DNA of 64,000 bases from Providencia hangzhouensis (GTDB lineage: Bacteria; Pseudomonadota; Gammaproteobacteria; Enterobacterales; Enterobacteriaceae). Under the pieces are notes generated by a model, which worked only from the letters and a program-made list of their open reading frames with translations, had not been told where the DNA came from and made no database searches. The stretch is from the NCBI RefSeq assembly GCF_029193595.2, contig NZ_CP135052.1, positions 434,001 through 498,000 of the forward strand, written 5' to 3'. Shown here in pieces: positions 2,922 through 51,182 of this stretch. Position 1 is the stretch's first letter. Every line of letters begins with the position of its first letter. The position numbers were made by a program, and so were the translations under genes.

Positions 2922-4772
2922 TTAAAAATCAATACTACAAGCACCTTCTTCGGCACCTGATAAATGTCTTCTTAATGCACCGAAAAGCTCCCTTCCACAA
3001 CCACTACGCTCAGCAGTTAAATCAGCCTCGAAGGGTTGGCGTTTATTGAGTTCTTCTTCATCAACTAGTAATTGTAATTCTCCAGTCAATGCATTTACCC
3101 TAATGATATCGCCATTTTTTACTTTTGCTAACAACCCACCATTATAAGCTTCAGGGGTGACATGAATTGCAGATGGTACTTTACCGGATGCTCCGGACAA
3201 GCGACCATCAGTAACTAACGCGACTTTGTAGCCTTTATCCATAAGTACACCCAGAGGAGGCATGAGTTTATGAAGTTCAGGCATGCCATTCGCGGATGGC
3301 CCTTGGAAGCGGACAACAATAATACAATCTTTATTAAGCTCACCTGCTTCAAAGTGTGATGCAATCTCATTTTGGTTGTTAAATACGACTGCTGGAGCTT
3401 CAATAACTTGATTTTCTTCAGGAACTGCTGATGTTTTCATCACGGCACGCCCTAAGTTACCAGAAAGTAATTTTGTGCCCCCATGAGGTGAGAATGGGTG
3501 TTCTATTTCAGCGATAACATCAGGATTAAACGAGGATTTAGGGCCTTCTCGCCATTCAAGTTGGCCATTATTTAGCCAAGGTTCCATGGTATAACGTTCC
3601 AGCCCGAATCCTGCTACGGTATGGACATCGTTATATAATAAACCTTTTTGTAATAGCTGGTGGATAAGCAAAGCTACGCCACCTGCGGCTTGGAATTGGT
3701 TGATATCCGCTTGGCCATTAGGATAGATACGGCAAATAAGTGGAACAATAGCTGAAATATCGGAAAAATCATCCCAATTGATAATGATCCCTGCGGCTCT
3801 TGCTATAGCAACAAGATGCATGGTTAAGTTAGTTGAGCCTCCCGTCGCGAGCAATGCGACGATACCGTTGACAATAACTTTTTCGTTAACCAGTTGACCG
3901 ATAGGTAAGTACTGGCCCGATTGTTCAGTTAAACGCGTAATTTGTCGTGCGGCAGCCTCTGTTAATGCATCCCGTAGTGGAGAGTCAGGTGGTACAAATG
4001 ACGCACCGGGTAGATGTAACCCCATGACCTCCATCATCATTTGATTCGAGTTGGCAGTACCGTAAAAAGTACAGGTGCCGATCCCATGGTAAGAGGCGGC
4101 TTCGGCTTCTAATAAAGCGAGTCGATTAACTTTGCCTTCAGCATACAGCTGGCGAATACGAACCTTTTCTTTATTTGGTAAGCCTGTTGCCATTGGACCT
4201 GCTGGGACAAATATTGCAGGAAGGTGACCAAATGAAAGTGCGCCAAGCATTAAGCCTGGAACAATTTTGTCGCAAATACCTAAATAGAGCGCACCATCAA
4301 ACATATTATGGGATAGGCCAATGGCAGTTGACATGGCAATGACATCTCGACTTAGCATCGATAGTTCCATCCCATCTTGCCCTTGGGTTACGCCATCACA
4401 CATTGCTGGGACACCCGCAGCGACTTGGCCAATTGAGCCAGCTTCTAATAATGCTTTTTTGAGTTGTTCAGGGTACTTGTCGTAGGGACGATGAGCAGAA
4501 AGCATATCATTGTAGGAATTGATGATTGCAATATCAGAGCGAGTCATGCTTTTAAGAATTTGTTTTTCTTCGCTTTGGCATGCTGCAAAGCCATGGGCAA
4601 GGTTACCGCAAGCGAGTGATGCTCGATGGACGGTCATACAACGAGCCTGCTCTATTTTTTTGAGATAAGCAGCTCGAGTTTTCAGTGAACGAGAAATGAT
4701 ACGTTGAGTGATGCGATCAAGTTCTTTATTGATCACTGAAGGATTTGTCTCTTTAGAGGTGGTCATGCTCAT
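2922..4772 (-). CDS. edd: 6-phosphogluconate dehydratase
   Basis: First enzyme of the Entner-Doudoroff pathway: dehydrates 6-phosphogluconate to KDPG. It belongs to the IlvD/Edd iron-sulfur dehydratase family. It is 616 residues, against 603 in E. coli, the excess being a short N-terminal extension. Visible blocks: [71 protein letters not shown], and [20 protein letters not shown]; the Cys residues in the first three are the expected cluster ligands. The start at 4772 has GGAG eight bases upstream; a second ATG two codons in is the alternative. It is the promoter-proximal gene of edd-eda, with a perfect GntR palindrome about 93 bases upstream. Confidence 0.96.
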
Positions 4773-4864
4773 GATAATTGCTCCATAGTGCAGTAAAAAG
4801 ATGAATCAAACTGCAAGTCAATTCGGGTTGTGCCTATCGTTATTTACTTGTGAACTATAGCATC

Positions 4865-4882
4865 AATGTTACCGGTAACATT
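4865..4882. promoter_or_regulatory. GntR operator upstream of edd
   Basis: AATGTTACCGGTAACATT is a perfect 18-base palindrome containing the LacI-family GntR core. It lies upstream of edd on the edd side of the edd/DUF1460 gap. The same core recurs in front of gntK (45447-45462), and gntR itself is in the window. In E. coli GntR represses edd-eda and gntKU, so relief by gluconate is expected here. Confidence 0.9.
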
Positions 4883-4935
4883 GTTCAATGAAAGCGGAGG
4901 AGTTGCAATATAGAAAATGAATATTCGAAGCTATC

Positions 4936-4951
4936 TGTGATCTGAATCAAA
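4936..4951. promoter_or_regulatory. possible CRP site in the edd upstream region
   Basis: TGTGATCTGAATCAAA matches TGTGA-N6-TCACA at nine of ten fixed positions. It lies about 165 bases from the edd start and 135 from the divergent DUF1460 gene, so which gene it would serve is open. Catabolite control of gluconate catabolism would make sense. A short site of this kind can occur by chance. Confidence 0.4.
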
Positions 4952-5011
4952 TTTATATTATGGTGTGGACAGGGTAGGAAATAGACAAATAAGCATGCTA
5001 TAGTGGCTTAG

Positions 5012-5030
5012 TTGATGATTTTATCATCAA
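5012..5030. repeat. palindrome upstream of the DUF1460 gene
   Basis: TTGATGAT pairs with ATCATCAA around TTT, about 55 bases before the DUF1460 start codon. There is no T-run after it, so an operator is more likely than a terminator. No regulator is recognised. The rest of the 4773-5085 gap holds only the GntR and CRP-like sites listed separately. Confidence 0.35.
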
Positions 5031-5085
5031 AATTCAATTAGATGATTGTCGAAGGTTAGGTTGTATTCATGAGAAGAGCGGCAGG

Positions 5086-5877
5086 ATGTTAAGGCTAGTT
5101 ATAGCTGCATTTATATTGTTATTGGCAAATTTTGTTAGGGCTGAGGTTATCTTAGCTTCGGGGTCATATAAAATTTTAACTGAAGTTTTTAATGAACAAA
5201 CGGCAATGCAGTTACAGAATGCGTCACAAGCAGAAAAAATTGATGTATTGACCCGATATTTTTTAACTACACCTTACAATAAACAAACTTTGAATATGAG
5301 TCCGCTATCACCTGAAGAATTGGTGATTAATTTGAAGGAGATGGACTGTATGACATTCATAGAGTACATCGAGGCTTTTAAGCGTTCTAACAATTACGAG
5401 CAATTTGTTTCAAATTTAATCAATATTCGTTATATCAACCAAAATATTACATTTAAACATCGGCGGCATTTTTTCTCTGATTGGGCGCAAGAACCTGAGG
5501 CGATAGTGGTAGATATTACTAGTGAAATAAGCCCACACTTTATTCGGGTAAATAAACAACTTAATTTGAAAAATTATAATCAGCGATATATATCAGGCTT
5601 GCCTGTTAAAAGTAGACTAATAAACTATATTCCAGTTAAATATGTGGATGATGATTTAGTATTGAGATTAAATGTAGGGGATTACATCGGCGTTTATTCA
5701 AAGGATAATGGGTTAGATGTAAGTCATGTGGGTGTTGTAATACGTAGAGGTAATAAAACAATATTTAGAAATGCCTCTTCACTACGTAGAAATCTTCAGG
5801 TTATTGATATCGAACTGAACGATTACTTAAAAGGGAAGGCCGGGATTGTTGTTTTTAGGCCGAAATCAGATTATTAG
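5086..5877 (+). CDS. exported DUF1460 (NlpC/P60-like amidase) protein
   Basis: 263-residue protein with a signal peptide (residues 1 to about 19, cut near VRA-E). The remainder resembles the DUF1460 family, an NlpC/P60-fold group described as N-acetylmuramoyl-L-alanine amidase-like enzymes acting on peptidoglycan fragments. The expected nucleophile is Cys88 in EMDCMTFIEY and the catalytic His is His214 in VSHVGVV; the HRRHFFSDW block at about 125-133 is also family-typical. It is divergent from edd and monocistronic. The MrpJ-like regulator and the amidase AmiD follow on the same strand after long AT-rich gaps. Exact substrate unknown; the family assignment is from motifs only. Confidence 0.8.
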   Translation: MLRLVIAAFILLLANFVRAEVILASGSYKILTEVFNEQTAMQLQNASQAEKIDVLTRYFLTTPYNKQTLNMSPLSPEELVINLKEMDCMTFIEYIEAFKRSNNYEQFVSNLINIRYINQNITFKHRRHFFSDWAQEPEAIVVDITSEISPHFIRVNKQLNLKNYNQRYISGLPVKSRLINYIPVKYVDDDLVLRLNVGDYIGVYSKDNGLDVSHVGVVIRRGNKTIFRNASSLRRNLQVIDIELNDYLKGKAGIVVFRPKSDY

Positions 5878-36869: not shown

Positions 36870-37317
36870 AGATGCCGTCTGCTCTCTAATTAAAATAACG
36901 AATAGAAAATCTAAAAGTAATAACAGCCAATTTTAATAAATAGGCTGAATAAATATTATTATTTAACTTCTTGTTGTTATAGTTTAAATAGGGATTCAAT
37001 TTACTGCAAGTTTTATGCGATGAGCTTTTTTGTAATTAATTAGCAAATTTATTGAATTGATACCTTGGTTGGGTTTAAAAACTGTATTAAAATAATTTTT
37101 AGGTGATTTAATTCATATTGCCTACATATTTGTTGTTAAAAAAATATATTAATCTAAATAAATCCATTCTTACCTATGGATGTTCTTTTGTGGGAATAAT
37201 CCTAGGTATTTGCACTTAAATTAATGCCTTTGTTATTTTATGAGAGACAGAAGTTAATTTTGTAAAGTTTACACTTTATTAGGCGAAGAAATTAATCTTC
37301 GCCTAATATATTAAGGA
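36870..37317. other. gap between MarT-like gene and TonB receptor gene
   Basis: 448 AT-rich bases. The terminator of the receptor gene occupies 37279-37306 and the rest is presumably the promoter region of the MarT-like/fidL pair. No other feature seen. Confidence 0.5.
37279..37306 (-). terminator. terminator of the TonB receptor gene
   Basis: TTAGGCGAAGA and TCTTCGCCTAA form an 11-pair stem around AATTAA just after the receptor stop codon. The T-run is modest. Confidence 0.75.
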
Positions 37318-39315
37318 TTAATATTTATATTCAATACCTAACCAATAGTTACGGCCTTCTTCAATATAACCATTAGTGTATTCATAGGATTTATCAAATA
37401 AGTTGTTCACTGAGGTGTTAACAGAAATACCTTGGCCAAAATCATAATCTAAGCGCAGGTCAGTTTTAGCATAGCCACGTACTTTGCTTTCTGCATCAAC
37501 ATAATTAAATGCCCAACTTCTTGCTTCTTCGGTAATGGTAATGCTAAATGGATCGTATGGCGTGAATTTCACCCAAGCAAAGGCTTTGTGGGTAGGTAAT
37601 TCGGCAACGTGTTTTACACTGTAGTGCTTAGGATCAGCGTGAATATATCCGTAGCTTAAACCAGTTTCCATCCAATCAGTGATTTGTCCGTTAGTCCCTA
37701 AATCAATCCCAAAGTAGTCAACTTTGCCACTATTGCGGTTTTCAAGCACGTATCCCCCATTTTTATTAGTACCAACACGATGGGCCATAATCGCATCAGA
37801 GACATGGTTGTAATAAATACTTGATGTATATGACCAAACTGGGGAGATATGACCTTTATAGGTCAAATCGTAAGTTAGGGCTCGTTCTGTATCAATATGA
37901 GGATTAATGATAAAGGTATCATCACTTTTCATTTTTTCTTTGGTATAGCGTTCTTTCTGTGTTGGGAAACGGCTTCTTTCTGATACCGAGAACTGTACGG
38001 TATCTTCATTTTCTAAATGGTAACGAGCCATCATTTCCCAGTTGAATGCATGTTGGCTATTACCATCATATTTTTCAAAATCTCCTGATTTGTAATCATA
38101 ACGTTTGCCGTCGGCACTTTTGCGCCAATCGTAGCCAATACCAGCGATAATATCGAGATTATCTATCGCAACCCATTGATATTCTGTAGCAATAGAATAG
38201 GTATTATCTTTATAGCGGTCGAATGGGACATCTCTCTTTGCACGTGCGCGGTGAACGTCTTCTTTCCAGTGTGCGGCAAATGACAGCATATCTAATTCAC
38301 GCACGGTGAAGTCAACACGCATGTCAGCCCCATTACTGTAGTCATCATAGCGGCTGTAGTTATAGATACCGTCTTTATAGTCTTTAACAGACCTATATTG
38401 ATGGAGTGTATTCTTAAATGTGTCGTGGTACAGACGGCTCTGTAACGCGATATCATTGGTTATTTGGGTTGTTCCATTGAAATAAATACTTTCTTTATCA
38501 TAAGCTGGCCATTGCCAAATTTGAGGTTTGGTGTTTGTTACACTCGGCGGGCTGTTTTTATCACCATCTTGCTTTAGATAGGTAACCACATACTCGTCAG
38601 CTTCACGGGGTATCCAGCCCACTTTCACCATCATACGTTTATCGTCTGTTGCAGAGTTAGGACGGCGTCCATTATTTCCCGCCAATGGGTTATCATTTTC
38701 TGAACTCGGGATCCCCATAAAACGCTGCTTATATTGGCTACCACTGACTTGAATAAAACCTAAGTCATTGCGGCCACCTAAGCGTGCACTAATATTGTGG
38801 GCATTATCTGCGCCACGAGCGAAACCTTGGTTTAAGCTGATATTGGCCTCAAAAGGTTTTTTAGGGGTAGCGGTGGTTAGGTTAATCGCTCCCCCCATCA
38901 AGTTTGGACCTTGTAATAGTGAAGTATATCCGGTTGATAGCTCAACGCTTGCGAGTTCGCTCGTCATAAAGCGCCCTAGGTCAAGGGTGCCATCATAAGG
39001 GACATAAGTTGGGATGCCATCAAAAAAGATAGGGACTTGGCGGCTATCAAATCCACGTACATTCACTTGGGTTTCGTTGCGATTACCTGATTTTTGAATG
39101 GATACACCTGGCATTGTACTCAGTGCTTGTGCAACGTTGGTTTTATTCAATTGTGTCATTTGCTCTTGCGTGATGACATTTGCATCCGCTGCTAATGGTG
39201 TACTCCAAACAGACATCACATCAGTGTTTTTTTCTGCTTTAGGGTCAGACGCGGCTTGTCCCTGTGCTGCGAATAAAGCCATCCCAACCAAATAGGTAAT
39301 TTGTTTTATTTTCAT
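37318..39315 (-). CDS. TonB-dependent outer-membrane receptor (predicted molybdenum/tungsten-compound uptake)
   Basis: 665 residues: signal peptide (1-22, ending QGQA), a TonB-box-like stretch DVMSVWS near residue 33, plug domain to about 165 (TQLNKTNVAQALSTMPGVSI, NVRGFDSRQVPIFFDG, LQGPNLMGGAINLTTATPK), then a 22-strand barrel ending in ...GIEYKY. The overall type is that of ferri-siderophore or metallophore receptors. It is transcribed alone, behind modD and the ABC importer genes, and its 132-base upstream gap carries a ModE-like operator. Substrate is therefore predicted to be a molybdenum or tungsten complex rather than iron; the sequence alone does not prove this. Confidence 0.85.
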   Translation of the reverse strand: MKIKQITYLVGMALFAAQGQAASDPKAEKNTDVMSVWSTPLAADANVITQEQMTQLNKTNVAQALSTMPGVSIQKSGNRNETQVNVRGFDSRQVPIFFDGIPTYVPYDGTLDLGRFMTSELASVELSTGYTSLLQGPNLMGGAINLTTATPKKPFEANISLNQGFARGADNAHNISARLGGRNDLGFIQVSGSQYKQRFMGIPSSENDNPLAGNNGRRPNSATDDKRMMVKVGWIPREADEYVVTYLKQDGDKNSPPSVTNTKPQIWQWPAYDKESIYFNGTTQITNDIALQSRLYHDTFKNTLHQYRSVKDYKDGIYNYSRYDDYSNGADMRVDFTVRELDMLSFAAHWKEDVHRARAKRDVPFDRYKDNTYSIATEYQWVAIDNLDIIAGIGYDWRKSADGKRYDYKSGDFEKYDGNSQHAFNWEMMARYHLENEDTVQFSVSERSRFPTQKERYTKEKMKSDDTFIINPHIDTERALTYDLTYKGHISPVWSYTSSIYYNHVSDAIMAHRVGTNKNGGYVLENRNSGKVDYFGIDLGTNGQITDWMETGLSYGYIHADPKHYSVKHVAELPTHKAFAWVKFTPYDPFSITITEEARSWAFNYVDAESKVRGYAKTDLRLDYDFGQGISVNTSVNNLFDKSYEYTNGYIEEGRNYWLGIEYKY

Positions 39316-39340
39316 TATGTCTTTCCAGTTTTATGAATAA

Positions 39341-39364
39341 CGATATATTATTTTTTATATAACG
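39341..39364. promoter_or_regulatory. ModE-like operator upstream of the TonB receptor gene
   Basis: CGATATAT, an 8-base spacer, then ATATAACG: an inverted repeat of CGNTATAT half-sites starting 26 bases before the receptor start codon. The form is that of molybdate-responsive ModE sites of enterobacterial mod genes as I recall them. A second match is in front of the importer genes (43953-43976). Occurrence at both promoters of one cluster that also holds modD makes chance unlikely. Confidence 0.75.
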
Positions 39365-39391
39365 ATATGCGTCATTAACCATAAGCGAATG

Positions 39392-39415
39392 CAGCCTACG
39401 AGGTAGGCTGTTTTT
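39392..39415 (+). terminator. hairpin between modD and the receptor gene
   Basis: CAGCCTAC pairs with GTAGGCTG around GAG and is followed by TTTTT on the + strand. On the strand in use the T-run precedes the stem, so it may instead end the modD transcript weakly or be a processing site. Confidence 0.5.
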
Positions 39416-39447
39416 ACAAATGATTTTTTTAACGCTAACTACTTAGG

Positions 39448-40293
39448 TTACTGCTTAAAAATATGTACTTTAATATCTCGCGGCGCTGCGTAGTAAGGGG
39501 CTGATGTAACCAATAATGGCACCCCTGTTTGTGCGAATGCTTCGATTGTTTTTAAATTAATTCCACCTGCAATGGACAGTCGACAAGGCCGACTTTGTTG
39601 TTTGGTGAGTTCTTGTAGCCGCTGAATTTGTTCAATGGGCAATTTATCTAGCTGAATAATATCGGCTTGCGCATTGATGGCAAGAATGGCTTGTTCATAG
39701 TCATCCGCCTCAACAATAATCATTTTTTCAGGGGCGGCTTGGCGTAGTGTTTTAATATGACTCACCCAATCATTTGGATTTTCAAGGCATTGGCGATGAT
39801 TGGTGAACAGTAAAATACTTTCTGCACTACCTGCTCGGTGAATAATAGCGCCCCCAGCCAAAATCGCAGTTAAGGCAAGGGGCTTAGTATGAGGAATGGT
39901 TTTTCGCGTGCACGCAAGTTGCCCATCAGGTTGATATTGATGCAAAATATTTACCATTTGCTGGGTGTAGTGGCTGACACCTCCACACCATTCCAGTACG
40001 TTTTGTACCGCTTTCCAGCCCTGATGTAAGGCCTCAATAGGCCCAATAGCACGAATTAAAACGCTTTGTGGGGCAACTTGTTGGCCATCTTGAAAGTGAC
40101 AATCACAAGTGATACCAAGTTTCTCTAACATACGTCTGGCGATGGTGACTCCACTGATGCAGCCCCCAAATTTGGATGCAAAGGTCATCACCCCCATTTG
40201 AGACTGCAAGCCGAGCGCACGGGTGGTAAGGTCGCCGTACTGGATATCATCTAGCAGTAGTTGGTCGATTAATGCATCAGGCACATAAATCAT
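39448..40293 (-). CDS. modD: ModD, NadC-like molybdenum-associated phosphoribosyltransferase homologue
   Basis: 281 residues of the ModD branch of the nicotinate-nucleotide pyrophosphorylase (NadC) fold: LLLDDIQYGDLTTRALG at the start, EWCGGVSHYTQQMV, CTRKTIPHTKPLALTAILAGG, HRAGSAESILLFTNHR, DIIQLDKLPIEQI and SIAGGINLKTIEAFAQTGVPLLVTS. ModD occurs in molybdate transport operons (for example of Rhodobacter); its reaction is not established. The start overlaps the methyltransferase stop (ATGA), so the two are translationally coupled. It is the last gene of the five-gene importer operon and a main reason for assigning the cluster to molybdenum. Confidence 0.85.
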   Translation of the reverse strand: MIYVPDALIDQLLLDDIQYGDLTTRALGLQSQMGVMTFASKFGGCISGVTIARRMLEKLGITCDCHFQDGQQVAPQSVLIRAIGPIEALHQGWKAVQNVLEWCGGVSHYTQQMVNILHQYQPDGQLACTRKTIPHTKPLALTAILAGGAIIHRAGSAESILLFTNHRQCLENPNDWVSHIKTLRQAAPEKMIIVEADDYEQAILAINAQADIIQLDKLPIEQIQRLQELTKQQSRPCRLSIAGGINLKTIEAFAQTGVPLLVTSAPYYAAPRDIKVHIFKQ

Positions 40294-41108
40294 AATATCA
40301 GTTCCGATTCATCGACCACATCCCAAGAGACCATTGCCCAATCTCTGGATGGATAAGGGATTGTTTTGCCTAGTGCCGCTTGTTCATCATAATACTGACG
40401 TAAGATAGCGGTTTCTTCTGGTGTAATATTTTTAAGGGACCAATTGACACTGTCAGTGAAAGTGTCAAAGCTATCAAATCCACCTTTATTTGGACTTTTA
40501 ATAAAATCAACGCGTGCATTGATGCCCATTTGATGCAATATATTCACTGCATAAATATAGGTGGGTAAACGAACCACTTCGCGGCCTATTTTGCGAATTA
40601 TTTTTTCATCAATAAATGTTGGGTTGATGGTATGGGTCGTGTATACCCGCAATTTTGTTTGGCGATTAAGCTTCAGTAAGGCTGCTTTTAAATCATCAAC
40701 GAGTGTTGAGCGTGACGCTACTGAAATATCGACTTTGGGTAATGAACTCCAGTCATCTTCCCATGCCAGTTGTTCAAAGCGCGCATTGGGAATATTTAAT
40801 TCTTTCGCCCGCAGTTCAGCCATTTCGAGCATGCCGCGGCTATAATCAATACCTATAGTTTCCTTGAATTCATTAGCAAGGCAAAGGCTAACGGAACCTG
40901 GGCCACAGCCCACATCAAGCAAAGTTTCAGCGCCTGCCAAATCCATTAATTCACGAAAGCGCACTAAGTATGGGTCATGGGGATTAGCGCAAGTTTGCGC
41001 CATTTGTTGTGCTTTTTTATCCCAATGCTCTGGCTCTTTGCGGCTTCGTTGGGCTTGTTGCATATGTTTCTGATACATTTTTGCAAAATCGATTTGATTA
41101 ATTAACAT
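40290..41108 (-). CDS. class I SAM-dependent methyltransferase
   Basis: 272 residues. Rossmann-fold methyltransferase: SAM motif I LLDVGCGPGSVSLCLANEF at about 60-78, motif II acidic GIDYSRGMLEMAE, motif III with VDISVASRSTLVDDL, where the usual NPPY is absent, so this is not an N6-adenine methylase. Substrate unknown. It is sandwiched between the ABC ATPase gene (11 bases upstream) and modD (4-base overlap), a fixed place that argues for a role with the imported metal compound, such as altering a chelator, but this is inference. Confidence 0.82.
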   Translation of the reverse strand: MLINQIDFAKMYQKHMQQAQRSRKEPEHWDKKAQQMAQTCANPHDPYLVRFRELMDLAGAETLLDVGCGPGSVSLCLANEFKETIGIDYSRGMLEMAELRAKELNIPNARFEQLAWEDDWSSLPKVDISVASRSTLVDDLKAALLKLNRQTKLRVYTTHTINPTFIDEKIIRKIGREVVRLPTYIYAVNILHQMGINARVDFIKSPNKGGFDSFDTFTDSVNWSLKNITPEETAILRQYYDEQAALGKTIPYPSRDWAMVSWDVVDESELIL

Positions 41109-41119
41109 GATCCCTGACC

Positions 41120-41887
41120 TTAACTAGAAAATGTTGATGGAAGCTGAAAGTGAGATTGAATGCTGTGTTTATCCACATTATAAAGTGCTGCCAAGTTAGT
41201 AAGTGTTAACATACATTTTGATAACCCTTGTCTGGCTTTTTGCTGTTTATCGAGCAAAATGACATTGTCAGCGATGGCTGCGGCATGCTGTGGGTGATGG
41301 GTTGACATCAATATCGTCATACCATGGGATTTAAGCTTTTCAATTTGCTCAAGCAAGCGAATTTGGTTACCAAAATCAAGGCTAGCGGCAGGCTCATCCA
41401 TAATTAGAAGTAATGGTTTTTGTATTAAAGCCCTTGCTATCAATACTAACTGTTTTTCTCCGCCACTAAGCGTGCTGTATAGCCGTGTTGCCAAATGTGA
41501 AATGCCAAGGTGCTTTAGTTGTTGATATGCTAAATTTTTTTCGGTCTCTTTAGGGACTGAAAATAATGAAATATGGGGAGTTAAGCCCATCATGACCATA
41601 TCGACTACAGTGAAAGTAAAGGGGGTATCATGGGCTTGGGGAACATAGGCGACAGTTTTGGCTATTTCGCGTGGTTTAAAAGTTTGAATTCCTTGCCCAT
41701 TGAGTAGGATCTCGCCTTTAATTGCAGGTAATAACCCCAGTAAAGTTTTCATTAAGGTGGTTTTACCGCAGCCATTTGCACCTAATAAGCAGCTAATCTC
41801 CCCCTTAGGTAATGAAAGATTAATGCCATCAATGATAGCTGTGCTATGATAACCAATTGCGACCTCTTGCAAAGATACAATGCTCAT
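41120..41887 (-). CDS. ABC importer ATPase (FepC/BtuD type)
   Basis: 255 residues. Drives uptake of a metal chelate. Walker A GANGCGKTTLMKTL at about 34-47, Q-loop VAYVPQAH, signature LSGGEKQLVLIARAL, Walker B LLIMDEPAASLD, H-loop STHHPQH. Closest in type to the ATPases of type II importers for iron siderophores, B12 and, in Haemophilus, molybdate/tungstate (MolC). Start overlaps the permease stop as ATGA. Confidence 0.92.
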   Translation of the reverse strand: MSIVSLQEVAIGYHSTAIIDGINLSLPKGEISCLLGANGCGKTTLMKTLLGLLPAIKGEILLNGQGIQTFKPREIAKTVAYVPQAHDTPFTFTVVDMVMMGLTPHISLFSVPKETEKNLAYQQLKHLGISHLATRLYSTLSGGEKQLVLIARALIQKPLLLIMDEPAASLDFGNQIRLLEQIEKLKSHGMTILMSTHHPQHAAAIADNVILLDKQQKARQGLSKCMLTLTNLAALYNVDKHSIQSHFQLPSTFSS

Positions 41888-42900
41888 CTCACCCGCCTTG
41901 TCTGCAATAAAATAGCTAAAAAGAAGGGCGCACCGATTGCAGAGGTTAAAATGCCTATGGGTAATTCAATCGCGGCGATAGTACGTGCTAAGGTATCAGT
42001 AATGAGTAATAAAATAGCTCCAATTGCCAGTGATGCAGGGAGCTGATAGCGAAAGTTAGCACCCACTATCATTCGGGTAATATGTGGCACAATCAAGCCT
42101 ATCCAACCAATAATTCCAGCAATAGAAACAGCGCTTGCCGTGAGCAGTGTGGCACAAATAATGAAGGTAGCTCGAGTTAAACTGACATTGATCCCAAGGC
42201 TTTTAGCTTCTTCATCGGATAAGCTGAGTAAATTCATGCGCCAGCGCAATAATAATAGTGGAATAATACCGATAACCATCAGAGGTAATACTGACATTAA
42301 ATCTGCTTGGGTAATTGATGATAACCCACCTAATAGCCAAAACGTGATGGAAGGCAACTGGGTGTAAGGGTCTGCAAGAATTTTCATCAATGAAATTGCT
42401 GAACCACATAACGCACTGATAGCGACACCGACAAGAACCAAAGATAAAATGGGGTCATGTTGACGCGCTAGTCGGGCAATAAAGCACACTAAAGTAACGG
42501 TAATTAGGCCACCAATAAATGCACTTAGCTGAATGTAAAATAATGATTGCCCAAAAAAAATACCGATAACAGCCCCCACGCCAGCACCCGCTGAAACCCC
42601 TAAAATATCTGGTGAAACCAATGGATTGCGGAACATTCCCTGATAAGCAGCACCTGCAATAGCCAGTCCTCCACCAATAACAATAGCGGCTAATGTGCGC
42701 GGGAATCGTATTTGCCAGAACACGGTTTCATGCCGCGGATTACTCAACTCGCTGTGAGAAGGTAACTGACTAATGAGCAGGTGGTAAAGCTCATTTAGTG
42801 TAAGTGAGTACTTACCACTTATTAAGGCGATAATAAAGCTTATTAATAAAACAGCGATTAATAAAAGGGATTTTCCGCCTTGTTTCAATACACCATTCAT
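41884..42900 (-). CDS. ABC importer permease (FecCD/BtuC type)
   Basis: 338 residues, about ten transmembrane helices. Family blocks: FWQIRFPRTLAAIVIGGGLAIAG, AYQGMFRNPLVSPDILGVSAGAG, WLLGGLSSIT, GIIGWIGLIVPHITRMIVG. I take the ATG at 42900, which overlaps the binding-protein stop as ATGA; an in-frame TTG at 42918 would give an extra six residues. Works with the ATPase and the Tat-exported binding protein. Same family as MolB, the Haemophilus molybdate/tungstate permease. Confidence 0.93.
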   Translation of the reverse strand: MNGVLKQGGKSLLLIAVLLISFIIALISGKYSLTLNELYHLLISQLPSHSELSNPRHETVFWQIRFPRTLAAIVIGGGLAIAGAAYQGMFRNPLVSPDILGVSAGAGVGAVIGIFFGQSLFYIQLSAFIGGLITVTLVCFIARLARQHDPILSLVLVGVAISALCGSAISLMKILADPYTQLPSITFWLLGGLSSITQADLMSVLPLMVIGIIPLLLLRWRMNLLSLSDEEAKSLGINVSLTRATFIICATLLTASAVSIAGIIGWIGLIVPHITRMIVGANFRYQLPASLAIGAILLLITDTLARTIAAIELPIGILTSAIGAPFFLAILLQTRRVR

Positions 42901-43934
42901 GATTTTTCCATGAGCCAATCAACCTGCTCTAAAGTCAGTGGAGAATGGTAAAAATGGGTAAAAAATTCAGCAATATCATGCTTGATATTTTCGGCAATAC
43001 TCTTATCGAAATGGCTCTGTAGCCGTCTCATGCCGAGTAAGCGGTTAACCCCCGGAGGCCCATCTAACCAGCCAAATGGCATACCGCTGAAAACCAGTAA
43101 CTGGTTGTTAGTAATGGCATCTAGCCCTTTCCATAATGCAGAGTTTGTGATCAATTCAATGGCTTCGTCATATTGCGTTATAATGATGTCAGGGTTCCAT
43201 TGATATAATTGCTCCATAGAAACCGTTGTCAGTCCATGGAAGTTAGGGATATCAACTACATTACGCAAACCAAGCATTTCAATGGCTTCAGTATGAATTG
43301 AGCCTTTAGCGCCGGTTTCTAAACCTTTTGCCCCTCTCGCGAGGTAAAAACTTAGTGATTTCTGTTGGTTTTGATGAGCAAATAAGGCAGCATCATCAAT
43401 ATAGCGTTGAGCAAGTTGGCCTAACTTTTGAGCCTGTGGGATAACGCCTAAAACCTCACCGAGTTGCATAAGCTGTTGTGGCGCATCTTTTAACCCTCCA
43501 GCCATTAATAAATAAGGTACATGGGTTTGTTGGGCAACCTTTTCTGCTTGTGAAAGATAGGTATCATTAATATTACCAGTATCAATAATTAAATCTGGGT
43601 TATAGGATAGAAGCTGTTCTAAGGAAAGCGTACTGCCTCGACCTGCTAAACGACCATATACGGGTAATTCGAGCCATTGCGCTGCAAAAAGGCCACTGTG
43701 TCCTTTTTTCAGTGAAATTGAGGAAAATCCCACCATTTTTTCGGGAGCTAATGCGAACATCAATAGATCAGAAGGGGGGCCTGAGCTGATGACGCGTTGA
43801 ATATCCTTTGGCGTCGGAAGATGACCAAATAAAGCTTTTTCAACGGCTGGACGAGTTTGTGCGAAGCTCGGCAAACTGTAAAAAGCAGCAAGTACTGCAC
43901 TTGATTTAAGGAACTGCCTACGATTGATCGCCAT
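42897..43934 (-). CDS. periplasmic metal-compound-binding protein, Tat-exported
   Basis: 345 residues, FecB/BtuF-type solute-binding protein with two lobes joined by a long helix (SYNPDLIIDTGN in lobe 1, QWNPDIIITQYDEAIELI in lobe 2). The N-terminus MAINRRQFLKSSAVLAAFYS is a textbook twin-arginine signal, unusual for this family, suggesting folding or ligand loading in the cytoplasm. First gene of the importer operon, with a ModE-like operator 19 bases upstream of the start codon. The likely ligand is a molybdenum/tungsten oxyanion or complex, by context. Confidence 0.88.
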   Translation of the reverse strand: MAINRRQFLKSSAVLAAFYSLPSFAQTRPAVEKALFGHLPTPKDIQRVISSGPPSDLLMFALAPEKMVGFSSISLKKGHSGLFAAQWLELPVYGRLAGRGSTLSLEQLLSYNPDLIIDTGNINDTYLSQAEKVAQQTHVPYLLMAGGLKDAPQQLMQLGEVLGVIPQAQKLGQLAQRYIDDAALFAHQNQQKSLSFYLARGAKGLETGAKGSIHTEAIEMLGLRNVVDIPNFHGLTTVSMEQLYQWNPDIIITQYDEAIELITNSALWKGLDAITNNQLLVFSGMPFGWLDGPPGVNRLLGMRRLQSHFDKSIAENIKHDIAEFFTHFYHSPLTLEQVDWLMEKS

Positions 43935-43952
43935 AGTCTAATTTCATCTATT

Positions 43953-43976
43953 CGTTATAATAATAATTATATAGCG
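43953..43976. promoter_or_regulatory. ModE-like operator upstream of the importer operon
   Basis: CGTTATAA, an 8-base spacer, ATATAGCG: the same half-site pair and spacing as at 39341-39364 with one change per arm. It lies 19 bases from the binding-protein start codon. Confidence 0.7.
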
Positions 43977-44045: not shown

Positions 44046-44061
44046 TGTGATGTAAATCAGT
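44046..44061. promoter_or_regulatory. weak CRP-like site before gntR
   Basis: TGTGATGTAAATCAGT matches TGTGA-N6-TCACA at eight of ten positions, 74 bases before the gntR start codon. Tentative. Confidence 0.35.
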
Positions 44062-47485: not shown

Positions 47486-49471
47486 TTAGCTTAGGCTAAT
47501 TTTAGGGATGATAATTTTATTATGGTGTTGTGGCGAATTAATGTGTTTAGCATGACCCGGTGATAATGCAATATGCTTCGTAAAAAATGAGGTTAGTCCT
47601 AAGTCGTGAGTAGAAAAGAAAATAATTGATTCATCTAATTCAAACTCTTGCTTCATTAATTGTAAGAATGAGAGTGCATCAGAGGTCGCCATAAATGATG
47701 TCGATTCGTCTAAGAATATCATTTCAGGTTGTTTTATCAGAGTCAGTGCGAGCTGTAACTTTTGTTTTTCCCCTGTAGATGCGGCGATATCGGTGATGAG
47801 TGTATCGTCTAAGGTTTCCTTACTAATCAGTAAGGATGGGCAACATAATTTGGTAAGGTGAACAATTGTATTGTTATCGAATACACCATAGAAATTAAAA
47901 TTATCACGAATGCTGCCATGAATAAATGTTGAAATACCATTATGGTAGGCAATTTTTTCTGTTAAAAAGCATTGGGAAATTTCATCGATACCAATACCAT
48001 TGATTGTAATATCCCCTGATGAGTATTCTGAAATCCCACATAATGCTTTCATTAGTGATGTCTTTCCTACGCCTGAAATACCAGTAATACCAATAACATC
48101 GCCGGGTTTGGCTTCAACATCAAGCTGATTAATAATGGTTTTACCATTAATGCTAACGCTAAGATTTTTTGCACTAAAATGTTTTATTGAATCTGTTGTT
48201 ATACCATCTGCTTTGAAATGGATAAGTGGGTTGTTTTTTAACTGATCAATACTGGATTTGATATGAAATAGATGTGTTTTCACCATAAATAAGCGATTAA
48301 TGGCACTTGTAATTGCACCAGAAAGTCGACTATTAATGATCATCACGGCGATAACAGAAGCCAAGCTTAGACTGCCTTCACCAATAGCCAAATAGCTAGC
48401 TACGTACATTACTATCATAGATAAAAACGTATTTACTTTGATAATTTCCATCCAATGGTGATTGGCCTCATTTAGTTTTAATTTTATTTTTTCATCTTCA
48501 TTAGTTTTTATACTGATGTACTGTTTAAAATGGTTATCTCTGGCAAAACAAAGCTCATGTTTTTTTTGTTCCAATGAGTAGTACATGGCTGATTTTTCAT
48601 AGTTTAAGGTATTCGCTCGGAGCATATTTTTATAGGAAAGAAAGCGGATGTGTAGGCATAAAAAGATAAGCCCAGCGTAATAGCTCAATAGCAATAATGA
48701 ATAAAAACCTAACATACCAAAAATGCAAAATGAAAATAAAATGGCTAACCCGACATCATAAATAATTTGAGGCTTAATTTCCCAAACTTGTAAGATTGAT
48801 GCTTCTGCTGTTCTCACTTTAATTGAGGCACTTTTACAACTAGATTGTTTTAATAAATTAATAAAATAGCGATTAAAAGTACTGATGTTAAGCTTTATTT
48901 TTTTTGTGTTCTGTTCATGAATAATGTGTTTAATAAAAAACTCTAAGCCAATAACGACAATGAAAATAAAACTAATATATAAAAGTGAGCTTATAGATTC
49001 ACTATAAACTAAGCGGGAGTTAAAAAGATTTGAATATAAAGGTAATAATAGTGCGAATACAATTAAAGGTAATGACAATAAGCTAGATTTTGGTGTTAAC
49101 TTAATCAGTGATTTATATATGCTCTCTTCATTGAGTGTGTTTTCACTTGCAGAAAATGAAAACAAATGTTTATTTTCAATTAGTTGTTGTGTTATTGCTA
49201 TGTCGGTTGTTAGATTGGTTAGCTGGCCTCTATGATTTTTGATGATAATATATTTCCCATCTGCTATCTCCATAATAAAGAGAGCAGGTAGCTTTTTTTC
49301 ATTAAAATCTGAAATAGAAGTGTATTGATAAGTGAAAAAATCATTATTAATAAATTCATTTATATTATTTAAGATATATTTATTATCATAAGAGAGTGCT
49401 GGAGAGGAAAATGGTTCTCCTAATATCTTAAAGTATTGATTAATAACATCATGGAAACTACTTTCTTTCAT
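47486..49471 (-). CDS. type I secretion ABC exporter, SiiF-like
   Basis: 661 residues. Inner-membrane ATPase of the exporter predicted to secrete the giant adhesin. The N-terminal ~140 residues have a C39-peptidase-like fold position but no catalytic Cys/His pair, the usual degenerate domain of adhesin exporters; about six transmembrane helices follow; NBD with Walker A GITGISGVGKTSLMKAL at about 461, signature at about 565, Walker B MIFLDEST, H-loop FFSTHD. The signature reads ASTGEKQ in place of LSGGQ. ATG at 49471 is used; a GTG at 49480 is possible. Overlaps the small gene before it by 14 bases. Last gene of the operon. Confidence 0.85.
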   Translation of the reverse strand: MKESSFHDVINQYFKILGEPFSSPALSYDNKYILNNINEFINNDFFTYQYTSISDFNEKKLPALFIMEIADGKYIIIKNHRGQLTNLTTDIAITQQLIENKHLFSFSASENTLNEESIYKSLIKLTPKSSLLSLPLIVFALLLPLYSNLFNSRLVYSESISSLLYISFIFIVVIGLEFFIKHIIHEQNTKKIKLNISTFNRYFINLLKQSSCKSASIKVRTAEASILQVWEIKPQIIYDVGLAILFSFCIFGMLGFYSLLLLSYYAGLIFLCLHIRFLSYKNMLRANTLNYEKSAMYYSLEQKKHELCFARDNHFKQYISIKTNEDEKIKLKLNEANHHWMEIIKVNTFLSMIVMYVASYLAIGEGSLSLASVIAVMIINSRLSGAITSAINRLFMVKTHLFHIKSSIDQLKNNPLIHFKADGITTDSIKHFSAKNLSVSINGKTIINQLDVEAKPGDVIGITGISGVGKTSLMKALCGISEYSSGDITINGIGIDEISQCFLTEKIAYHNGISTFIHGSIRDNFNFYGVFDNNTIVHLTKLCCPSLLISKETLDDTLITDIAASTGEKQKLQLALTLIKQPEMIFLDESTSFMATSDALSFLQLMKQEFELDESIIFFSTHDLGLTSFFTKHIALSPGHAKHINSPQHHNKIIIPKISLS

Positions 49472-49928
49472 TTTCTTCACTCTTTAGGAAGCAAGCGTTA
49501 ACCCCTTGATTATCCTCAATAGGTTTTAAGGCTTTAATGTGTACATTAGGCGTGTTTTTTTTAATTAATACCGTGTTATAGATGGTATAGGTCATTGCTG
49601 CGTCAAAAGATATGTTATTTCCATAACTGCAATAAACATCAATAGATTTAACCTTTTTATGATCAATTAGTTTTAAGGTGTCATGGCTAAACATTAACGA
49701 TGTCATGATGCCATTGCCATTGCCATTGCCATTTTTATTGTCATTATTACTATCGGTATTTATAGATGAAGACGCTTCAGTATTGTGGTTATCAATTCCT
49801 ATCAATGCCGCCTTGCCTTTATTTTTTTCAGCAGCCATTGTGCTTGATAACACATTAGCTAAGAGCACAGCCATAAGTAATGTCATGGTTGCAACAGCAG
49901 CAGATAATGCAGAAATAAAACCTAACAT
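49458..49928 (-). CDS. small membrane protein of unknown function in the secretion operon
   Basis: 156 residues, unrecognised. An N-terminal hydrophobic helix (residues 2-30, ISALSAAVATMTLLMAVLLA) anchors it in the inner membrane; a low-complexity linker follows (NTDSNNDNKNGNGNGNG), then a globular, probably periplasmic domain with two Cys (DVYCSYGNN and VNACFLKSEE). The linker is encoded partly by a four-copy hexanucleotide repeat. It lies between the membrane fusion protein gene (3 bases away) and the ABC gene (overlap), so it should be expressed with them. The Salmonella siiA-F set as I know it has no gene at this place. Confidence 0.75.
   Translation of the reverse strand: MLGFISALSAAVATMTLLMAVLLANVLSSTMAAEKNKGKAALIGIDNHNTEASSSINTDSNNDNKNGNGNGNGIMTSLMFSHDTLKLIDHKKVKSIDVYCSYGNNISFDAAMTYTIYNTVLIKKNTPNVHIKALKPIEDNQGVNACFLKSEENERK
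49710..49733. repeat. hexanucleotide microsatellite (GCCATT)x4
   Basis: Four perfect copies of GCCATT on the + strand, coding for alternating Asn-Gly on the minus strand in the linker of the small membrane protein. Slippage would change linker length in steps of two residues without shifting frame. Confidence 0.9.
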
Positions 49929-49931
49929 AAG

Positions 49932-51182
49932 TCACCAAACGTTAAATGTAATGTTATCGCTAATTAATGCGGTTAAATAATGAAGTACTGAAATCTCTTT
50001 ACTAGAGATATAGAGCATCACTGGCAAACCGTCATGTTCTGGAAGGAGCTCCGTATTTTGTTCTGGTGTAATTTGTACTGAATAATAGCGTTCTTGGCTG
50101 TTCCGCTCCCTGTCACTAAAGGAATCAGCGCTGATTTTTGTAACTTTCCCGTTAATGATTTTTTTAAACCCAGGGGAGTTCACCACAATTTTGGCTGGTA
50201 GCTGTGGCGCTATAAAAGGGCGATACTTCGCTAATATTTTACCTTCAATAACCCGCGTACTTTGCTGTTTTTTAATCACCATCACTAAATTTGAGGCTTC
50301 AACATACGAACCTTTCTCTAAATCTTTTTCGATACTTAATACAATCCCGTCAGCTGGTGATAACACACTATTCGCTCTTATTTTATTGCGCAGTAATTCC
50401 ATCTGACCACTGTTTTCTAATTTCTCTTTTTTTAGTCGATTAAGTAGAGTTTCATTTTCTTGTATTTCCCCGATAAGTCGTGCGGTATACTTCTTTTCTT
50501 GCAGTGAGATTTCTCGCAATAACCCTTGAGCATTTAATTCACCTGACGCTATTAGCGCGGTGGTGCGGCTGATTTCAGCATTATTATTGAGTTTTTCAAT
50601 TTCAGGAGCTCTTGCATTTTTTAATAATAAGTCTTTCTTTTTCAGTATGTTAATTTGATTTTCTAGTTCGCTAGACTCTTTAATTTGTGAGATATATTTA
50701 TCTCGTAAATTACTTATCTCCATGCGTAAGAGAATATGACCATAGAGTTCTCTATAGGCACTTAAAGTTTTACTTTGTAAGCCCTTTGCAAAGAAAAAAT
50801 ATTCAGATTCCGTATTTATGCTTCCATCAAGGATTTTATTTAACAGTTTTTTGTTTTCTTCTAATTCATTGATGCGTTCATTAGCAAAAGTAACGAGGCC
50901 GGATAAGGTTTTTTCTTGATGAAAGACATCTAAATTAGTATAGGAAAATAAAACTTGGTCTTTTTCTACCTTATCACCAGTTTTAATAGCGAACTGATTA
51001 ATAAATCCAGAAGCCGGGCTCACTATTTCTAGTCGATTGGAGACTCCTGAGATAATCCCCTCTCCTGGAGAGGATATTTCTATTTTAGCTAATATAATAT
51101 AACCGATAAATAATGACGTGATACCTAGAAATATTTTTAATTTTTTAGGTGCCCGGTTCAGTTTATTTAGATAACGTTTCAA
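49932..51182 (-). CDS. type I secretion membrane fusion protein, SiiD/HlyD-like
   Basis: 416 residues. Periplasmic adaptor joining the ABC exporter to the TolC-like protein: short cytoplasmic N-terminus, one transmembrane helix (about 17-33), lipoyl half (IVSPASGFINQFAIKTGDKV), a long coiled coil (about 95-265), second lipoyl half (SPADGIVLSIEKDLEKGSYV), then beta-barrel parts. It starts at a TTG with AGGGAAG about ten bases upstream; no ATG occurs before the coiled coil, so the TTG is likely real. Overlaps the end of the TolC-like gene by 20 bases. Confidence 0.86.
   Translation of the reverse strand: MKRYLNKLNRAPKKLKIFLGITSLFIGYIILAKIEISSPGEGIISGVSNRLEIVSPASGFINQFAIKTGDKVEKDQVLFSYTNLDVFHQEKTLSGLVTFANERINELEENKKLLNKILDGSINTESEYFFFAKGLQSKTLSAYRELYGHILLRMEISNLRDKYISQIKESSELENQINILKKKDLLLKNARAPEIEKLNNNAEISRTTALIASGELNAQGLLREISLQEKKYTARLIGEIQENETLLNRLKKEKLENSGQMELLRNKIRANSVLSPADGIVLSIEKDLEKGSYVEASNLVMVIKKQQSTRVIEGKILAKYRPFIAPQLPAKIVVNSPGFKKIINGKVTKISADSFSDRERNSQERYYSVQITPEQNTELLPEHDGLPVMLYISSKEISVLHYLTALISDNITFNVW

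Follow-up and report, generated by a model that had tools for sequence, protein, structure and literature searches.

A ModE-boxed TonB-dependent receptor and ABC importer cluster of Providencia, a probable uptake route for a molybdenum or tungsten compound

Several described systems resemble parts of a gene cluster found in Providencia hangzhouensis (genome 4.6 Mb), where a TonB-dependent receptor gene lies next to an operon for a periplasmic binding protein, a permease, an ATPase, a methyltransferase and ModD; the DNA studied, referred to as the window, is the whole 64,000-nt stretch G000:C1:434001-498000. MolBCA of Haemophilus influenzae (HI1470-1472) is likewise a BtuCD-type importer, and its MolB is the best solved relative of the permease encoded here. 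The available text of PMC4031551 describes binding of both molybdate and tungstate by MolA, and that of PMC3928620 has modA and modD genes adjoining molABC in H. influenzae. In the portions of the sources at hand, MolBCA is assigned no receptor or outer-membrane partner, which the Providencia cluster has, and shows low affinity for the free oxyanion. ModABC, repressed by ModE according to the accessible part of PMC8264917, shares with the cluster the type of box and a similar distance from box to start codon, but belongs to another importer class and has no outer-membrane part; the same text gives porins as the presumed way for molybdate through the outer membrane. The TonB-dependent receptors BtuB, FecA, OprC and ZnuD have the fold and domain layout of the receptor studied here, which differs from them in its YVPYDG plug motif, its ModE boxes and its molybdenum-gene neighbours. 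Finally, the E. coli prrA-modD-yc73-fepC cluster agrees with the Providencia one in all six gene types and in their order, and iron uptake is proposed or considered possible for it in the excerpts available of PMC1890555 and PMC12928451. The analysis reported below indicates that the Providencia cluster probably takes up a molybdenum (or tungsten) compound by a TonB-dependent route that is repressed by ModE.

The E. coli ModE consensus is ATCGNTATATA-N6-TATATANCGAT, the core of which, CGNTATAT-N8-ATATANCG (PMC545781, as far as its text is available), was scored here over 14 fixed positions. The inverted repeat ahead of the receptor gene (CGATATATTATTTTTTATATAACG, positions 39341-39364) fits all 14 positions, and the one ahead of the binding-protein operon (CGTTATAATAATAATTATATAGCG, 43953-43976) fits 13 of them. 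A sequence-only reading of the window had assigned the same half-sites to both repeats; the two do follow the N8 pattern, although their half-sites are not all identical (14/14 vs 13/14). With no more than one mismatch allowed, the whole genome holds four places, against one for the reversed control pattern, namely the receptor box and a site at 2094140 (both without mismatch), and the binding-protein box and a site at 3294434 upstream of moaA (one mismatch each). The pattern scan of the genome consequently bears out the earlier assignment of both repeats as ModE-type sites, ranking them among the four best places together with moaA. The modA promoter of this genome reaches 12/14 (two mismatches). 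At up to two mismatches there was no genome-wide enrichment (22 places vs 36 for the reversed control pattern), so the single-genome argument hangs on the best sites; in the window, the same threshold yields four matches against 0.30 expected, a number reached in 0 of 100 shuffles. A control scan of 29 kb of E. coli K-12 returned the modA and moaA sites only. The genome also encodes ModE itself (126.5 bits vs a cut-off of 98.5), with 68% identity to E. coli ModE. The two palindromes are best described as predicted ModE-type boxes.

Comparative footprinting carries most weight in the case for these boxes being real. The binding-protein search gave 16 loci, 12 of them from Providencia, with L022-L024 excluded from box counts for want of a receptor match. 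All 12 Providencia loci carry both boxes: each of their 24 binding-protein and receptor promoters has a site that scores 12/14 or better. Only one other site of this quality occurs in the 252,424 bases of these loci, the total expected from a Markov simulation being about 1.8. The receptor turned up in all 24 Providencia genomes of a genus-wide search (one match, L145, spans residues 149-665 only), in each case behind a box of 12-14/14 that lies 17-39 bases ahead of the start. Boxes were also detected outside the genus, at the related clusters of E. coli, Enterobacter and Proteus and of members of three more family groups, the Shewanella-, Pasteurellaceae- and Orbaceae-like labels being derived from protein matches. 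Their arrangement varies: Enterobacter sp. (L020), E. coli (L025) and L082 of the same family have a single box, ahead of the binding-protein gene heading the run; Proteus mirabilis (L026) has two, as in the window, and so have L109 and L117; in L089 and L110-L114 boxes lie between the receptor and binding-protein genes or ahead of the latter; and L115 and L116 show a single box ahead of the receptor.

Over 27 loci, in which a box counted if it lay no more than 250 bases upstream of the longest open reading frame (ORF) or within its first 90 bases, 43 binding-protein or receptor ORFs had a box and 10 had none, as against 19 with and 307 without among all other ORFs (Fisher 4e-32, a value to be taken as a guide only, given that related sequences are not independent). 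The ten box-less rows comprise three receptors standing last in a single run (L020, L025, L082), one receptor fragment (L017), four receptor rows behind a small boxed ORF (L110, L112, L113) and two binding-protein rows (L115, L116), and the 19 other boxed ORFs include ten gntR-type divergent neighbours (nine from Providencia, one from Proteus) as well as small ORFs before receptors. ModE scored above the cut-off in 12 of 12 genomes of the order that carry the binding protein (representing seven genera, and hence not 12 independent events), compared with 48 of 197 sampled genomes of the order. In G146, from outside the order, the ModE match was below the cut-off. Outside Providencia the system is patchy: the 394 genomes of the order sample include 12 with the binding protein and 13 with modD; moreover, the nine loci L109-L117 are devoid of modD, and L110-L113 of the methyltransferase gene.

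The position of the boxes bears on the direction of control. They lie 18 bases from the start codon of the binding-protein operon and 25 bases from that of the receptor gene, whereas the corresponding gap at modA is 19 bases in E. coli and 27 in this genome, and that at moaA, which is activated by ModE, is 175 and 226 bases, respectively. As the gaps match modA and not moaA, the cluster has modABC-type geometry, and by this analogy ModE would repress both cluster promoters.

Further ModE-related or regulatory features were noted in passing. The perfect ModE-type palindrome at 2094140-2094163 is intergenic, with no known molybdenum gene adjoining and a small putative secreted protein starting about 180 bases away. 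Between modABC and modE of this genome lies a 357-aa ORF (L007:6597-7670), on the other strand from modABC. In the gap that separates gntR from the binding-protein operon, the minus strand at 44046-44059 reads TGATTTACATCACA, a stretch largely kept in the 12 aligned Providencia loci; it resembles, in our judgement, a CRP/FNR-type palindrome, and could act on gntR or place the operon under anaerobic control. Second TonB-dependent receptor-like ORFs were recognized by eye near the clusters of L111 (5163-7571) and L112 (5027-7321), with a 12/14 ModE-type box ahead. L082 also has a second TonB-dependent receptor ORF (3421-5571), situated downstream of its cluster and 28% identical to the query (E 5e-7).

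The genes of the cluster are all encoded on the minus strand. Those for the binding protein (42897-43934), permease (41884-42918), ATPase (41120-41887), methyltransferase (40290-41108) and ModD (39448-40293) form one compact run, overlapping or nearly touching each other; the receptor gene (37318-39315) comes after this run, with an upstream region of its own, and gntR is the next gene upstream of the operon, on the opposite strand. Gene calls and domain matches uphold the composition given in the sequence-only reading, a receptor gene and a five-gene operon each preceded by an inverted repeat. The binding protein matches Peripla_BP_2 (54.0 bits vs a cut-off of 27.5), is 100% identical in the P. 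rettgeri YPR31 locus, and was modelled with a predicted local distance difference test (pLDDT) score of 92.2; its Tat-type signal scores 21.9 bits with TAT_signal, slightly below the cut-off of 22.7. The permease is of the FecCD/BtuC type (FecCD, 5.1e-92) and the ATPase belongs to an ATP-binding cassette (ABC) importer (Pfam ABC_tran, 4.2e-32). The 272-aa class I S-adenosylmethionine (SAM)-dependent methyltransferase contains Pfam methyltransferase domains, and 39 columns are invariant in an alignment of 28 sequences. ModD, a quinolinate phosphoribosyltransferase-like protein, reaches 348 bits with TIGR01334 (cut-off 178.85). An alignment of nine ModD and two NadC sequences showed an arginine replaced by lysine (GERT/GWK) and a lysine by phenylalanine (IKENH/LFTNH) in all nine, which we take to be the acid-binding residues of the NadC pocket, while TRK and HR are retained throughout. 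The 665-aa receptor, finally, has both plug and beta-barrel, with the motif YVPYDG in the plug.

Comparison with characterized families narrowed these identities. Of the 13 NCBIfam receptor models matched by the TonB-dependent receptor, none reaches its cut-off. The vitamin B12 receptor BtuB is rejected (TIGR01779, 74.3 vs the 599.7 needed), as is the vitamin B12 permease BtuC, whose models score 232.2 vs 461 and 211.3 vs 334. Nor are the components of ModABC type, having instead Peripla_BP_2 and FecCD domains and an ATPase nearest to those of FecCD-type importers. Among solved structures, the permease is closest to HI1471 (MolB; 2nq2, E 1.4e-65), followed by 7lb8 (1.3e-54), and MolA ranks third in the profile search of the binding protein (E 4.6e-18). 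Fold by itself does not reveal the substrate, since the matches of the binding protein and receptor fail to separate molybdenum from iron compounds. No Moco riboswitch or other RNA matched Rfam at the gathering threshold in five sources. Elsewhere in the window (47486-51182), an ABC exporter-like ORF and an HlyD-like ORF with a small ORF between them resemble, by eye, a bacteriocin or microcin export set.

Gene neighbourhoods in other genomes connect the receptor with molybdenum. In L089, the boxed receptor, ATPase, methyltransferase, binding protein, permease and modD surround a second, MolABC-like importer, the permease of which is nearest to HI1471/MolB (E 1.2e-73) and the binding protein of which matches MolA (E 5.1e-21, second to 4ovk). 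A receptor with 41% identity and a 12/14 box in Pseudomonas aeruginosa CP109682 adjoins genes annotated as a molybdopterin-dependent oxidoreductase, moaA, narI, narJ, narH and nitrate reductase alpha subunit, with no FecCD importer among its annotated neighbours. In L076/L094, a receptor with 31% identity and the same YVPYDG motif is accompanied by binding proteins and ATPases, one more ATPase that is ModC-like and bears a TOBE domain, modD and a TOBE protein of the Mop type, and this plug motif is common to the molybdenum-context receptors examined. The receptors of Azospirillum (L095) and Novosphingobium (L096), about 30% identical, carry a different plug motif, YLPAD, and were not counted in the group; this sister group possibly handles another metal or ligand. 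The L095 receptor is annotated beside a di-heme oxidoreductase, and a ModE-like DNA-binding ORF lies near that of L096. The modD gene also adjoins molybdate importer genes elsewhere, with a 14/14 box at three such loci (L073, L083, L087). It was rejected as a marker of the whole system, occurring with modB/modC-like genes in L083, L085, L087, L092 and L093 and, as judged by eye, with modA/modB-like genes in L073 and L075.

The E. coli relative, found in NZ_AP026904 between treA and ymgE, was equated with prrA-modD-yc73-fepC (CFT073 pathogenicity island; O157 S-loop 83/OI 55) because its genes stand in that order and have ymgE and ycgR as neighbours. Its proteins are 45-56% identical to those of the Providencia cluster and a 14/14 ModE box (CGCTATATGTGTAAGTATATAGCG) precedes its first gene, encoding the binding protein; it differs in having this single box and the receptor gene at the end of the run. 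At least 80% of a 6.5-kb query was covered in 2,094 of 5,426 complete E. coli genomes, 2,097 of the 2,105 places being chromosomal, and a 66-base query containing the box matched in 1,840 of 5,426 genomes (1,399 of 1,841 records with at least 99% identity). The cluster is absent from the treA-ymgE interval of K-12 MG1655.

The conservation of the boxes across family groups, the presence of ModE in the genomes and the molybdenum-gene neighbours elsewhere all speak for the outer-membrane, energy-dependent molybdenum or tungsten route already suggested from the window alone. Such a route would operate as follows. At high cytoplasmic molybdate, ModE-molybdate would occupy both boxes and keep the receptor gene and the binding-protein operon off, as at modABC. 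When molybdenum is scarce, the TonB-powered receptor would carry the compound across the outer membrane and the binding protein would pass it to the BtuCD-type importer. In the cytoplasm, the methyltransferase and ModD may then alter the ligand and free molybdenum, taking the place of the esterases and reductases of siderophore operons. We consider it somewhat likelier that the cargo is a chelate than a free or polymeric oxyanion, because the layout is that of siderophore systems and two cytoplasmic enzymes stand where release enzymes usually do; what points towards the oxyanion is the likeness of the permease to MolB, the lack of an importer beside the P. aeruginosa receptor and the existence of loci that have no such enzymes. 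The more specific proposal, a dedicated molybdophore or tungstophore system in which the YVPYDG receptor group takes up an organic molybdenum or tungsten chelate that the methyltransferase and ModD dismantle in the cytoplasm, is put forward tentatively, as slightly less likely to be true than not.

The likeliest alternative, though well short of even odds, is that free or polymeric molybdate or tungstate is carried, in the manner of MolBCA with its oxyanion cargo, and that energy from TonB serves to concentrate it when diffusion through porins is limiting. Besides the kinship of the permease with MolB, the adjoining MolABC-like operon in L089 and the binding of both oxyanions by MolA (PMC4031551, available text) are in its favour, as is the boxed P. 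aeruginosa receptor, the cargo of which, with moaA and nar genes beside it and no annotated FecCD importer nearby, may go to another importer; both enzymes are also absent from some loci. It is rendered doubtful by the enzymes being left without obvious task where they do occur, and by the view, found in the accessible part of PMC8264917, that so small an oxyanion passes porins.

An iron-siderophore system that happens to be under ModE control would agree with the domain types and folds, which match siderophore uptake, and with the possible iron uptake given in the available parts of the E. coli papers. Against it, the boxes are kept across family groups, the neighbours in other genomes are molybdenum genes, and no conserved Fur box was detected in the window, in the 12 Providencia loci or in E. 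coli by a sequence scan of limited sensitivity. The best Fur matches in the window were 14/19 on the binding-protein side and 12/19 on the receptor side, values of at least 14 occurring in 30 of 1,260 background tiles; those of the 12 Providencia loci were 11-14 and 10-12, respectively, and that of E. coli was 13. The control promoters of E. coli enterobactin genes scored 13, 16 and 15, and the just 13/19 of fepA-fes marks the scan as weak for some real Fur promoters. Taken together, these observations make an iron system improbable. We consider very improbable the salvage, by the two enzymes, of an organic molybdenum-related molecule such as a pterin or a fragment of the molybdenum cofactor: both enzymes are cytoplasmic and of a type that acts on small molecules, and one combines the core of a phosphoribosyltransferase with a pocket unlike that of NadC, but the cluster contains no pterin enzyme and several modD relatives reside in molybdate importer operons. 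That the palindromes are chance AT-rich sequence or sites of another regulator can practically be dismissed: the intergenic DNA is AT-rich and one perfect genomic site has no evident molybdenum gene, but no shuffle reached the window count, all 24 promoters and all 24 Providencia genomes retain the boxes, and moaA has the same motif.

The titles, abstract openings and passages covered in the open-access literature, with RegPrecise and subscription papers outside that scope, mention no TonB-dependent receptor for molybdenum or tungsten that is controlled by ModE, and a database may possibly hold an earlier prediction of such a receptor. A Shewanella ModE regulon has been reconstructed before; in the part of that publication available, ModE figures in a table and 'TonB' occurs nowhere in the main text (PMC3223726).

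A ModE-controlled TonB receptor, if confirmed, would mean that many Gram-negative bacteria pay energy for molybdenum or tungsten, and that part of the molybdenum in the habitats of these bacteria is chelated. The E. coli prrA cluster, hitherto a possible iron uptake system and present in about two in five complete genomes of the collection, would be re-assigned to molybdenum acquisition. ModD, which NCBIfam names merely 'ModD protein', would gain a testable role, and the molybdophore proposal would, if true, give it a function. Molybdoenzyme respiration in these bacteria would then be tied to TonB-dependent competition for nutrients.

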